NCBI GenBank assembly: GCA_025462735.1
Contig: JAOAPC010000011.1
Location: forward strand, 124,001 to 188,000
From: Acidobacteriaceae bacterium
GTDB lineage: Bacteria > Acidobacteriota > Terriglobia > Terriglobales > Acidobacteriaceae
Direction of reading: 5' to 3'
Length of the DNA: 64,000 nucleotides
Part shown: piece by piece, positions 9,064 to 51,516 of the stretch
How positions within the stretch are numbered: the stretch's first letter is position 1
How the letters are laid out: each line of letters begins with the position of its first letter
Made by a program: the position numbers and the translations under genes
Notes under the pieces: generated by a model
What the model was told of the DNA's origin: nothing
What the model saw: the letters and a program-made list of their open reading frames with translations, nothing else
Database searches by the model: none

Positions 9064-10389
9064 TTGGCCACTCTCCCGCTCCTCCTCGGTCTGCTTGTCG
9101 TCGTCAACCTCGTCCTACTTCTGTGGCTGCTCCTGTACCAACGTTCTGGAACATCGCAAGCTGCTGGAATAAAAGCACTTGTGGAGCGTTCGGATGGTCT
9201 GCAGAAAGCCCTGAGTGAACAGTTTTCAGCAGCGACGGCAGACATGGCAACCCGTCTGGAGCAGACGAAAGGCGACCTCCGCCAACAGGTCACGGACCGC
9301 CTAGCAGACGGCTTTTCCGGTATCCGGCTGACCGTCGAAAATCAGATGAAGGCGGGCCGCCAGGAACAGGCCGAGCGCCTGGGGGAAACCCGATCCGAAC
9401 TGGCTGGGGCGCTGGCTACGACTACATCCGCCCTAAAGTCGGAGTTCGATCGCCTTAACCAGCAGACGGCCGAGAGCCTGGAGCGAATCCGCGAGCGCGT
9501 CGATGCAAAACTGATGGCCATCACCGAACAGGTGCAATCGAAACTCGACCAGAACATTAAGGAAGGCTTTGCCCAGTTCGAAAAAGTTCAGCAACACTTG
9601 CGCGCAGCCGAAGAACAATTGCGGGAAGTGGGCGCGCTCGGACATTCAATTAACGATCTGAACAATCTACTGAAGCTGCCGCATCTTCGCGGAACATTCG
9701 GTGAGGCCAGCCTGGAACGATTGCTCTCTGATTTTCTTCCGGCCAACATGTTTGAAATGCAATGCTCGGTGAACGGCGGCGGCCGCGTGGATGCAATGAT
9801 CAATTTTCCAGATCGGCGGCTTCCCGTCGACGCGAAATTTCCGCGCGAGCAAGTGCTGGCATTTTTTGAAGAGAGCAGCGAGGCAGAGCTTGAAACCGCG
9901 CGCGTTGAGTTCGTACGGGTGATGAAAGCTGAAGCCAAACGCATTAAGGCCTACATTCAACCCGAGCACGGCACCACTGAAATTGCACTGATGTATCTGC
10001 CCAGCGAAACCTTATATATGGAAGCAGTGCGCAACCGTGACCTTGCTGACTGGCTCAACCAGCAGCATGTGTTTCCTGTTTCTCCGAATACATTGCTGAT
10101 GACGTTGCAGACGATTGCGCTCGTCCACAAATGGTATGAAGTCGCCAGCCGCTTCGAAAAGAGCCGTCAGGAGTTGGCTAAGGCGCAAAAGTCTTTCGAC
10201 CACTTCCAGAATCAATTCGAAACTGTCGGCAAGAGCTTGAACAAGGCGCAGGAGGCTTTCGATAAGGCGTCTACTCATCTCAAGACTTATCGGGGAAGAG
10301 TGACGGCACTCAGCGGGCAAGAGCAGCTTGAACTTGACGCCGCAAATGGGGACGGGCCGTTGCCACTCACAGATAAAGCGACCGCCTAA
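9064..10389 (+). CDS. rmuC: DNA recombination protein RmuC
   Basis: 441 residues, TTG start at 9064 behind CCGGAGAC. An N-terminal membrane segment (about 4-22) is followed by a long coiled coil (about 25-190) rich in Gln, Glu and Arg. The RmuC nuclease-like domain covers about 195-420. Typical motifs are LRGTFGEASLERLL, GGGRVDAMINFPDRRLPVDAKFP, YIQPEHGTTEIALMYLPSE and FPVSPNTLLMTLQTIA. RmuC limits recombination at inverted repeats in E. coli; the family shares the restriction-endonuclease-like fold. It is not in an operon with the minus-strand lpxD that follows. Confidence 0.92.
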   Translation: MATLPLLLGLLVVVNLVLLLWLLLYQRSGTSQAAGIKALVERSDGLQKALSEQFSAATADMATRLEQTKGDLRQQVTDRLADGFSGIRLTVENQMKAGRQEQAERLGETRSELAGALATTTSALKSEFDRLNQQTAESLERIRERVDAKLMAITEQVQSKLDQNIKEGFAQFEKVQQHLRAAEEQLREVGALGHSINDLNNLLKLPHLRGTFGEASLERLLSDFLPANMFEMQCSVNGGGRVDAMINFPDRRLPVDAKFPREQVLAFFEESSEAELETARVEFVRVMKAEAKRIKAYIQPEHGTTEIALMYLPSETLYMEAVRNRDLADWLNQQHVFPVSPNTLLMTLQTIALVHKWYEVASRFEKSRQELAKAQKSFDHFQNQFETVGKSLNKAQEAFDKASTHLKTYRGRVTALSGQEQLELDAANGDGPLPLTDKATA

Positions 10390-10417
10390 GTATTTATGAA
10401 CCTTCTTCGTGGGTGGA

Positions 10418-10435
10418 GCAGCGCTTCAGCGCTGC
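10418..10435. repeat. Palindrome between convergent rmuC and lpxD
   Basis: Perfect GCAGCGC-TTCA-GCGCTGC (7-4-7). No T-run follows on either strand, so a terminator role is possible but unsupported. Confidence 0.5.
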
Positions 10436-33963: not shown

Positions 33964-33990
33964 TTCTCACCCACATGAGACTGTGGAGGA

Positions 33991-34030
33991 ACGGGCGTCC
34001 TCGCCCGTGTTCTCGCCGGGCATTTGCCCG
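33991..34030. repeat. Palindromic element of the CGGGCG-NCCT-CGCCCG family plus a second hairpin
   Basis: ACGGGCG-TCCT-CGCCCGT (33991-34008), then CGGGCA-TT-TGCCCG (34017-34030). The first has the loop and core of the elements inside leuS and at 50319 and 51428. The TTG at 34024 lies inside it, so it is unlikely to be the nfo start. Confidence 0.7.
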
Positions 34031-35066: not shown

Positions 35067-37691
35067 ATGCCGCAGGATGAACGCACCATCGTGAGTCCCG
35101 CATCGCGGGCTGAAGATTCGAACGCGGAAGCCCGCGCTCGCGATGAGCGCTATAACCCGCGCGAAGTCGAAGAGAAGTGGTTCGCCCGTTGGCAGGACGA
35201 TCCTGCGCTTTACGCTGCCGAACCTCATTCCACCAAGCCCAAATATTACGTGCTGGAAATGCTGCCGTATCCTTCCGGCGCCTTGCACATGGGGCATGTG
35301 CGCAATTACGCCATTGGCGACGCGCTCGCCCGTTACATGTGGATGAATGGCTACAACGTGCTTCATCCCATGGGATGGGATTCATTCGGTTTGCCTGCGG
35401 AGAATGCGGCCATCTCTGCCCAAGTTCCGCCGCGCGAGTGGACCGTACGCAACATTGCGAACATGAAAGCGCAGATGAAGCGACTGGGTTTTGGCTATGA
35501 CTGGTCGCGCGAGGTAACTACTTGTCTGCCAGACTATTACAGGTGGAACCAGTGGTTTTTCTTGAAGTTTTACGAGCGCGGCCTGGCCTACCGGAAAAAG
35601 AGCAAAGTTAACTGGTGTCCGAAGTGTGCCACCGTGCTTGCCAACGAGCAGGTAGTTGGCGGGTGCTGCTGGCGGCACGAAGACACTCTTGTCGAGCAGC
35701 GCGAGCTGGAACAGTGGTTCTTACGCATTACCAATTACGCGGATGAATTGCTCCGCGATTTGGACCGGCTTCCCGGCTGGCCGGAAAAAGTGCGCACCAT
35801 GCAGCGCAACTGGATCGGCCGCAGCGAAGGTACGCTGGTCGATTTCCGGCTCGACACACCGACCGGGGACAAGATCACCGTGTTCACTACTCGCGTGGAC
35901 ACGATTTTCGGAGCGACCTCGGTCCAGCTCGCGCCCCAGCACCCGATCACTGAAAAGTTGGCGGCGGCTGATCCCGAGCTGCGCAAGAAAGTGGACCAGC
36001 TCATCGGCGAGCAGGCCAAAGCCAAAGAGACCGGCGACATCGCGGCCATCGAAAAGCATGGCGTAAATACCGGACATTTTGCGGTCAATCCTTACAACGG
36101 CGAGAAGGTTCCGGTGTGGGTGGCGAATTACATCCTCATGGATTACGGAACGGGTGCCATCATGAGCGTCCCGGCGCACGATGAACGGGACTATGAGTTC
36201 GCGAAGAAGTATGGGATCGAGATTCGGCAGGTAATTGTGCCGAGCGTGGCGCGGGCGCCCTCGCCCGCGAGAGATATATCGGACAAGAATGTCCGACCCA
36301 CACAGTCAGAAGGCCTCCCCTTTACTACACTCGATGGCAAGCTGATCAACTCCGGAGAGTTCACAGGTTTGTCATGCCAGGAAGCGATCAAGAAGATGTC
36401 TGCGTTCGCCGAGCAGCACGGCTTTGGGAAGGCGACAGTCACCTTCCGCTTGAAAGACTGGGGAATTTCGCGCCAACGCTATTGGGGAACCCCAATCCCA
36501 ATGGTCTATTGCGACAAGGACGGAGTAGTTCCTGTACCCGAAAAAGACCTGCCAATAATTCTGCCGGAGAATGTTGAGATCACATTAACCGGCGGATCGC
36601 CTTTGCAACGCGTGCCGGAATTCATGAACACGACGTGCCCGAAATGTGGTGGTCCCGCGCGCCGCGAGACCGACACCATGGACACGTTCGTTGATTCGTC
36701 CTGGTATTTCTATCGGTACACCGACGCGCACAACGACAGGGCCCCGTTCGATTCGAAGATCGCCGGTTACTGGTTCGGTGATCGAGGAATTGATCAGTAC
36801 ATTGGCGGCGTCGAGCACGCCATTCTTCATCTTATTTATTCGCGCTTCTGGACCAAGTTCATGCGCGACATCGGCCTCATTAAAAATGACGAGCCGATCG
36901 AGCGCCTATTCACCCAGGGGATGGTGATCAAAGGTGGCGCGAAAATGTCGAAGAGTCTCGGCAATGTGGTCTCTCCCGATGAAATGATCGCGCGCTTCGG
37001 CGCCGATGCCGCGCGAATGTACAGCCTGTTCGCCGCGCCTCCTGACCGCGATTTGGATTGGCAGGAGACGGGCATCGAAGGAATACAACGCTTTCTCGGA
37101 CGCGTCTACAGATTCGTAACCAAAAATGCTCAGCCGGAAGATCCTGACTGGAGGAAACCAGTTCCCAAGGAATTGTCTGCCGAGGCGCGAGCCGTTCAAC
37201 GCAAGCTTCACCAGACCATCAAGCGTGTGACTGACGATTTCCAAGGCCGCTGGCATTTCAACACGTGCATCGCCGCAACCATGGAATTTGTGAACGAACT
37301 ATATGCCACCGCGGACAATGTAGCGCGGACGCGCTCGTCCGCGATCCCCGTGCCCTTGCTCGCCGATGTGCAACGCAAGTTGCTTCTCCTGCTTGCCCCC
37401 TTTGCACCGTATCTCGCGAACGAACTTTGGGAGGTCCTCGGCGAACAGAGTAATTTGCTGAAAGCGCCCTGGCCAAAATACGATCCCGAACTTGCGAAAG
37501 AAGAAGAGATTGAAATTCCAGTGCAGGTGAACGGAAAGCTGCGCGGCAAAATCGTAGTTGCACCTGGCACCAGCGAAGAGGAAATCAAGCAGAAAGCTTT
37601 GGCCGATGAGAAGGTCCAGAGCTACGTCCGGGGAAAAGAAATTGTCAAAGTGATATTCACCGGCAAGCTGGTCAGCATCGTCGTGCGGTAA
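35067..37691 (+). CDS. leuS: Leucyl-tRNA synthetase with two repeat-derived insertions
   Basis: 874 residues, complete class-Ia LeuRS. HIGH-type HMGH is at about 73-76, CP1 editing domain at about 230-430 ([28 protein letters not shown]), Zn-finger-like CPKC...CPKC is absent but [13 protein letters not shown] and CPKCGGPAR are present, and KMSKS lies at about 625-629. The anticodon-binding and C-terminal domains end [13 protein letters not shown]...[15 protein letters not shown]. Two insertions coincide with palindromic repeats: about residues 393-415 ([18 protein letters not shown]) at the end of the editing domain and 752-760 (VARTRSSAI) in the anticodon domain. Both keep frame, so the enzyme is presumably active. 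Confidence 0.95.
36244..36296. repeat. Two palindromic elements inside leuS (insertion 1)
   Basis: CGCGGGCG-CCCT-CGCCCGCG at 36250-36269 (8-4-8, perfect), directly followed by TCGGAC-AAGAAT-GTCCGA at 36279-36296 (6-6-6, perfect). In frame they encode VARAPSPAR and the following ISDKNVRP. The first matches the intergenic copy at 51428 including the trailing GAGAG. Confidence 0.85.
37319..37345. repeat. Palindromic element inside leuS (insertion 2)
   Basis: TGTAGCGCGGACG-CGCT-CGTCCGCG, with an 8-4-8 perfect core at 37324-37343. It shares the TGTAGCGCGG start with the copy at 51426 and is read in the same frame as insertion 1 (VAR...SxA). Confidence 0.8.
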
Positions 37692-50268: not shown

Positions 50269-50334
50269 GGGGTGGACGCCTCGTCCGCCCCGAGTTTCTG
50301 CGAGAACTAATGGAGGGGCGGGCGCCCTCGCCCG
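50269..50334. repeat. Two adjacent palindromes of the leuS-insert family
   Basis: GTGGACG-CCT-CGTCCGC within 50269-50290 and CGGGCG-CCCT-CGCCCG at 50319-50334. The second has the same loop as insertion 1 in leuS. They lie just after the tricorn stop. Confidence 0.7.
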
Positions 50335-50439
50335 TCCAATTCTGTGCGCTGTTGCCGTTTTGTGACTTGGTTCACCGCGCAATAGTACGCGGACTTTCGT
50401 CTCATCTACTTACCGCCAAAATCGTATAATTAATCTTTC

Positions 50440-51425: not shown

Positions 51426-51516
51426 TGTAGCGCGGCGCCCTCGCCCGCGAGAGTACGAGCTTTGCTGCCGTGTGAGAGATGAAACAAGGTTGGGAGGGCA
51501 CAACTTCAGTCGTGCC
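51426..51516. repeat. Two palindromic repeats in the gap after the glycosyltransferase
   Basis: TGTAGCGCGGCGCCCTCGCC (51426 on) is a copy of the leuS-insert family with one arm base missing. GGGAGGGCACAACTTCAGTC at 51492-51516 is a half copy of the 77-base element at 22934. Confidence 0.7.

Follow-up and report, generated by a model that had tools for sequence, protein, structure and literature searches.

The leucyl-tRNA synthetase gene (leuS) of an Acidobacteriaceae bacterium contains three REP-type palindromes at two insert sites (I and II). These palindromes are very probably mobile REP elements that were inserted in frame into tolerant loops of the protein, the copies probably having been spread by REP-associated tyrosine transposases (RAYTs) and the encoded peptides being carried as passengers. 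Confidence is high that mobile palindromes occupy loops in frame, and low that they have any function. The elements are best regarded as selfish and as surviving where a loop tolerates them.

The gene is located in a window of 64,000 nucleotides (the whole stretch of DNA that was analysed) on contig C15 of a 4.36 Mb genome of 24 contigs, designated G000. The congeners are designated G001 to G008, and L-numbers denote loci. A sequence-only reading of the window had proposed that a mobile palindrome entered an essential gene. This proposal is supported, and neither of the two results named as contrary to it was found. The segment is not conserved in distant LeuRS, as REP1 with REP2 or a REP2 variant appears only in L062, L064, and L082 among 98 distinct LeuRS sequences, all from the same genus. 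Its DNA is not unrelated to other copies, since the same sequence recurs at 12 further places in the genome. The reading was right in substance and understated the extent.

Palindromes within leuS

The leuS gene extends from 35067 to 37691 on the plus strand and encodes 874 residues in an uninterrupted frame of the ORF list. The product was identified from the Pfam domains tRNA-synt_1_2, tRNA-synt_1, and Anticodon_1 and from matches to LeuRS in the PDB. The first palindrome of site I (REP1, 36246–36269, plus strand) reads GTGG-CGCGGGCG-CCCT-CGCCCGCG. The tag GTGG occupies 36246–36249, and the arms at 36250–36257 and 36262–36269 enclose the loop CCCT (8-4-8). This element encodes VARAPSPA, and its 24-mer has 12 identical copies elsewhere in the genome. 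The second palindrome (REP2, 36279–36301, minus strand; G000:C15:160279-160301) has arms at 36279–36285 and 36290–36296 and a tag at 36298–36301 that appears as CCAC on the plus strand. REP2 reads TCGGACA-AGAA-TGTCCGA on the plus strand with 0 mismatches (7-4-7) and GTGGGTCGGACA-TTCT-TGTCCGA on the reverse strand, and it encodes SDKNVRPT.

REP1 and REP2 are separated by 9 nt and have opposite orientations with the tags facing outward, as in an opposed REP pair. The composite insert (36246–36301, plus strand) corresponds to residues 394–412 in the loop after the editing domain, and the peptide VARAPSPA...SDKNVRPT is in the open frame. The sequence-only reading had placed an 8-4-8 palindrome at 36250–36269 back to back with a second palindrome within the open leuS frame, and this arrangement is confirmed. 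The second palindrome is present at 36279–36296 as described, but the 6-6-6 form assigned to it is replaced by 7-4-7, with a tag that extends to 36301 on the minus strand, and it belongs to a separate family of 64 places.

Only two palindromes had been claimed for leuS, and a third was missed at 37320–37343 on the plus strand (site II). This REP1 copy reads GTAG-CGCGGACG-CGCT-CGTCCGCG and encodes VARTRSSA at residues 752–759. Site II is positioned between two helices of the anticodon-binding domain (Anticodon_1 at 710–838). A LeuRS model was obtained using AlphaFold2 from 29 LeuRS sequences, with a mean pLDDT of 80.4 and Z of about 39–45 against solved LeuRS structures. The pLDDT is <50 at residues 395–418 and 752–756, within both insert sites, and also at 1–26, 541–544, and 621–632. 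Helices 731–753 and 762–776 of the model flank site II. The model fits the earlier suggestion that the insert is tolerated as a loop, and both insert loops are predicted to be on the surface.

Insert sites in related LeuRS sequences

LeuRS sequences from relatives were aligned (111 in total: two sets of 30 and 80 loci and the window gene), of which 104 were usable and 98 distinct, with the window gene counted twice. Seven loci for which a wrong-frame ORF had been chosen (L072, L085, L102, L132, L137, L152, and L161) were left out. The LeuRS tree contains 71 rows after removal of the insert columns, of sequences with <66% identity or <700 residues, and of L061, which is the window gene. Many of the genomes are incomplete and divided into several contigs, and most of the named ones are MAGs. 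The leuS frames of G003 and G002 are identical to those of JAICSO010000010.1 and QHZW01000027.1, respectively, and these records are probably the same assemblies.

The alignment gave presence and absence at both loops. At site I, G000 and G001 have REP1 followed by REP2, G003 has a pair of REP2 copies, and G002 has one REP2 whose tag is altered; no REP was detected in G004, G005, or G006, from which the site I segment is absent. At site II, G000 and G004 have REP1, G001 has a copy that is decayed, and no REP was detected in G002, G003, G005, or G006. Only the last part of the gene is present in G007. A third site (residues about 691–704) contains REP5, a family with a GTAG-type tag, in L063, L079, L106, and L123. 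At L079, which is from another genus, two REP5-type palindromes are in tandem.

With strict cut-offs, 9 of the 71 LeuRS contain a REP, all at sites I, II, or III. The strict rows number 5 for REP1 (≤3 mismatches), 4 for REP2 (≤2), and 4 for REP5 (≤2). The fewest state changes on the LeuRS tree are 1, 5, and 4 for sites I, II (matches with ≤4 mismatches), and III, respectively. The value for site II becomes 8 when the weak matches of L066 and L107 and the composite of L097 are counted. Palindrome-like segments were also noticed in the same loops, namely STSSGQAL at site II of L097 leuS, VLRSAQND at site I of L141 leuS, and LSLSKG in L241 prmC. These segments may represent other dispersed repeat families.

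The possibility was considered that the loops are merely hypervariable and that GC-rich codon usage yields palindromes by chance or convergence. The length of site I, which is about 10 to 30 residues among relatives that mostly have no REP, agrees with this explanation. An enrichment of palindromes as such in leuS was rejected, with 49 stems of at least 8 nt in 98 genes (one of them a run of N) and 32, 41, 41, 33, and 49 in five synonymous shuffles; for this reason, only matches to repeat families were used afterwards. The best matches in synonymous shuffles had 4 mismatches to REP1 (2 of 142), 3 to REP2 (1 of 142), and 7 to REP5. However, real matches reach 0 mismatches in the LeuRS genes, whereas the best matches of the reversed consensus sequences of REP1, REP2, and REP5 have 6, 7, and 7, respectively. 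REP1 is found at 22 places in the 4.36 Mb genome at ≤2 mismatches, 13 of which are the identical tagged 24-mer including the one in leuS, versus 0 for the reversed pattern; the leuS palindrome is therefore repeated far beyond chance. The 36 REP-like matches in congener genes, described below, also have no reversed counterpart. Chance is refuted for the strong copies and exceedingly improbable as the overall explanation, and it may hold for the weak copies of L066, L107, and L118 (≥5 mismatches).

In-frame inserts in other housekeeping genes

A search of the genome for palindromes inside coding genes, which the sequence-only reading had recommended, placed 18 of the 86 REP1 and REP2 copies in frame in 15 Pfam-recognised genes, and leuS holds three of these. 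The genes are leuS, an ABC exporter, tldD/pmbA, ubiD, dnaE, valS, a PUA-domain methyltransferase, a zinc alcohol dehydrogenase, prmC, uvrD/pcrA (a pair), mutS2, mnmE, an Lhr-type helicase, a PAD_porph deiminase gene, and an ASPIC/UnbV gene. Gene names were taken from Pfam and PDB matches, with frames of <240 aa and one 241-aa frame of L034 outside the Pfam scan. The ASPIC/UnbV gene (L187) is the weakest of the 15; its insert follows the last recognised domain by 245 residues, with no break of the open frame in between. Copies at L172, L173, L174 (two frames), L182, and L034 were not accepted as in-gene, although their frames are open, because the repeat is upstream of the recognised domain or no domain was found. 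Comparison with solved ValRS, MnmE, PrmC, and DNA polymerase III alpha structures placed the insert in an alignment gap or between blocks of aligned residues.

The strongest example is dnaE, which is exactly 30 nt longer in G000 than in G001, G002, G005, G006, and G008. The peptide is AARKE-LAGEGAHATQ-VGRFKS in G000 versus AARKE-IGRFKS in G001 and AARKE-LGRFKS in G002, and a REP insert of 42 nt is found at the same place in G003. The mutS2 gene of G000 is likewise 30 nt longer than those of G001, G002, and G004. A REP2 is also present in mutS2 of G003 at the same place within one codon. A segment of similar length with no REP match is found there in G005, so that the mutS2 loop varies for other reasons too. 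In both genes (L018, L203, L056, and L262), the REP of G000 and G003 is absent from the nearest congener of each (G001 and G002, respectively) with no visible scar. The inserts of G000 and G003 represent either two events at one position or exact losses. These two clean insertion junctions are the only ones found, and neither fixes the cleavage dinucleotide.

The 30-nt length of the unit keeps the frame. The consensus units of REP1 and REP2 contain no stop codon in six frames, and a GTAG tag would close one of them. Six open frames are expected from the composition of REP1 (0.70 of plain and 1.0 of palindrome-preserving shuffles) and less expected for REP2 (0.08 and 0.20, respectively). A frame-neutral 30-nt unit of this kind can enter genes that are not destroyed by it. 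One speculative idea is that the GTGG tag, which leaves six frames open unlike GTAG, might favour life inside genes. To our knowledge, the only genera with many intragenic REPs of this kind are the present genus and Opitutus, both with GTGG.

The congeners were searched at 41 loci of eight of the 15 genes using seven REP patterns with ≤4 mismatches. Within coding sequence, 36 matches were obtained with the REP patterns and 0 with the reversed patterns. The predefined sites (4,137 bases) contain 26 of the matches, one of which is circular because the insert of a congener itself had served to define leuS site III (the other 25 are not), and 10 matches are outside the sites (73,650 bases). The outside matches are from valS (3), mutS2 (4), uvrD (2), and ubiD (1, with 4 mismatches); those of valS, mutS2, and uvrD cluster and look like further shared sites. 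Eight of the nine sites defined from G000 hold a REP in at least one congener, with ubiD as the exception. The occupants of mnmE are a REP2 pair in G000, REP1 in G001, REP2 with a REP3-type element in G003 and G004, and REP3b in G002. Those of valS are REP1 in G000, REP2 in G003 and G007, and REP3b in G001, and the pair in uvrD is of REP2 in G000 and of REP1b in G002 and G004. The reuse of sites by differing families is read as many insertions filtered by protein tolerance, and shared descent explains some shared sites, such as leuS site I in G000 and G001. In valS of G007 (L218), the site holds REP2 together with a weaker REP1, and fewer than about 60 codons further downstream the frame is broken; either the gene is damaged or the assembly of this genome, which is 65% complete, contains an error.

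The inserts might instead be kept for a function: the hairpin in the mRNA could slow translation from one domain to the next, or the peptide could alter LeuRS. The inserts of prmC, tldD, and the ABC exporter are between recognised domains, that of leuS follows the editing domain, and that of MnmE splits the alignment of the TrmE N domain. A translational pause between domains could help folding, and the stem is perfect in several copies. Against this explanation, the same site in congeners is often empty or occupied by a REP of a different family or orientation. The site II copy of G001 leuS has lost part of its stem and kept the frame, and G005 and G006 retain the full leuS gene with no REP match. 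A functional role is accordingly very unlikely.

Mobile elements in tolerant loops are the preferred explanation. Three copies of two REP families, each a four-base tag with a hairpin in a unit of about 30 nt, would have entered two leuS loops in frame. The copies would be spread by at least one putative RAYT of the genome that acts on single-stranded DNA. Insertion may be widespread, with selection keeping mainly the insertions in tolerant loops and between genes, so that the same loops would be filled repeatedly. The encoded peptide would be tolerated as a passenger and would itself have no function. By this reading, in-frame mobile hairpins go on entering a conserved proteome, including a DNA polymerase III alpha subunit and two tRNA synthetases, and the REP sites mark insertion-tolerant loops of essential enzymes.

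Repeat families, transposases, and related systems

REP2 is found at 64 places in the genome at ≤2 mismatches, and the reversed pattern at 0. At ≤1 mismatch, REP1 is patchily distributed across the taxonomic family of this bacterium, with matches in 49 of 150 genomes. The conserved columns span about 27 to 30 nt (roughly CCGT/GTGG/8-4-8/A(A)). With the first base of the tag as 0, REP1 is conserved over −2 to +24 and REP2 over −4 to +23, with weak conservation as far as +25. The tag GTGG is present in 24 of 25 REP1 occurrences and in REP2, and GTAG is found at leuS site II and as the tag of the REP5 family of relatives. The 24-nt unit of tag and 8-4-8 stem-loop is within the 20–40 nt of REP palindromes. 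Of 32 neighbour pairs within 120 nt for four REP patterns, 13 are opposed with the tags outward, 19 are tandem, and 0 have the tags inward; opposed pairs of the BIME/REPIN type are thus present. The copies of REP1 and REP2 are spread over many contigs, and 18 of 86 are in recognised genes (frames of <240 aa being outside the Pfam scan).

The closest known elements are the GTAG-tagged intragenic REPs of Di Nocera, De Gregorio, and Rocco (2013; PMC3733652). The parts of that survey devoted to them describe tagged palindromes of 20–40 nt, as singles and opposed pairs, within open reading frames of several species, among them Opitutus terrae and members of Thauera and Xanthomonas. Many of these are in DNA repair and RNA-related genes, sometimes twice per gene, and the recB genes of two Xanthomonas species contain a REP at about the same site. 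As with the present elements, they are in frame in DNA repair, helicase, tRNA synthetase, and tRNA modification genes, with two insertions in one gene. GTGG replaces GTAG in most of the GTAG-20 elements of O. terrae, the species with the most intragenic GTAG repeats in that survey. Because intragenic REPs, some GTGG-tagged, are described there in much the same gene classes, the kind is already known. The elements described here differ in sequence and phylum, and eight of nine sites are also occupied in a congener. In the abstract and cited passages of the same survey, acidobacteria figure only for transposase genes that have long inverted repeats on both sides (Koribacter, Terriglobus, Acidobacterium, and Granulicella species).

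A search rule in the relevant section of PMC6006769 accepts GTAG or GTGG, and Acidobacteria are named there for a class of TnpA-like proteins. Granulicella aggregans and two further Acidobacteriota appear in the candidate-REP table of PMC12306157. Among the best-ranked matches of the open literature, with subscription papers mostly outside, titles and abstract starts gave no report of REPs inside genes of Acidobacteriota or of REP site reuse on this scale. The elements are a good example of a process that is known but has drawn little notice, and the record of it across this genus is unusually clear.

The sequence-only reading had likened the insert to Rickettsia palindromic elements. As characterized in the corresponding part of PMC3733652, these elements (RPE-1, RPE-4, and RPE-6) are in-frame palindromes in genes whose products probably still work, and in-frame palindromes in protein genes are also what was found here; the likeness holds in this functional sense. 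However, the RPEs of R. conorii are CGTC-tagged and RPE-1 is longer, whereas GTGG and RAYT genes are found here, a distinction drawn from the descriptions given there. The elements are better placed with REP/RAYT elements because of the tag and hairpin, the opposed pairs, and the RAYT genes in the genome. The REPtrons of E. coli, S. maltophilia, and Marinomonas (TnpA_REP/RAYT), as presented in the sections of PMC8266576 that describe them, share the tetranucleotide with a hairpin, the RAYT genes, and the opposed pairs. They differ in their GTAG tag, and the acidobacterial RAYTs are predicted from their genes. The Marinomonas enzyme is described in that paper as still cutting a GTGG substrate, at CA or CC, and the abstract calls the mechanisms of REP dissemination poorly understood.

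The genome contains 12 Y1_Tnp genes, none of which is on contig C15. Ten were scanned (L024 and L025 were left out), and nine passed the NCBIfam cut-off for the REP-associated tyrosine transposase; the tenth is an IS200-type TnpA. With no Y1_Tnp match on C15, the leuS hairpins are not at the end of a TnpA-encoding element as in IS200/IS605. The RAYT gene at L029 has REP4 at both ends in inverted orientation and is thus a REPtron. Downstream of the RAYT gene at L026 are REP3, at about 170 bp, and REP1, at about 230 bp. Within 1.2–1.5 kb around the 12 genes, no RAYT is bracketed by REP1 or REP2 and none adjoins REP2, so that the link of both families to a given enzyme is putative. Confidence in a RAYT as the putative mover of REP1 and REP2 is moderate.

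Gene conversion or recombination with intergenic copies could have spread the repeats instead of RAYT-catalysed insertion. The differing REP families at one site across congeners (mnmE, valS, and leuS site I) are what hairpin template switching might give, and the REP1 and REP2 families bracket no RAYT. RAYT genes are nevertheless present, and the clean 30-nt inserts of dnaE and mutS2 with no REP in the nearest congener require a first insertion, which argues against gene conversion and leaves it rather unlikely. It is doubtful that RAYTs both insert 30-nt units in frame and remove them exactly, with the loops as docking sites under continual turnover. The scarless absence of the dnaE and mutS2 inserts from G001 and G002 is compatible with such turnover, as are the differing families or pairs in mnmE, valS, and leuS site I. 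With the preferred RAYT-catalysed insertion, related genomes with and without an insert provide natural empty-site junctions from which the cleavage and target rules of RAYTs could be read.

The window was also scanned with the seven REP patterns at ≤5 mismatches. Six matches were obtained, three in leuS and three intergenic, and the reversed patterns gave 0. The first leuS palindrome had been reported to recur between genes at 33991, 50319, and 51426. The last of these is REP1 with a one-base deletion (51427–51449, plus strand), which was read from the sequence and is unmatched by the gapless pattern scan. The other two are related hairpins of other families. The hairpin at 33985–34009 (plus strand) has a GGAG tag and 3 mismatches to REP3 and is a relative, not a copy, of REP1; that at 50313–50336 (plus strand) is REP1b/REP3-like with 2 mismatches to REP1b. 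An exact intergenic copy of REP4, GTGGAGCAGCGCTTCAGCGCTGC, is present at 10413–10435 (plus strand) just downstream of an ORF that ends at 10389, and REP4 is the family that flanks the RAYT gene at L029. Elsewhere in the genome, a cluster of REP2 and REP3 copies in one orientation is present at L176 (G000:C18:243115-246610), and a spacing of 29 nt occurs three times within it.
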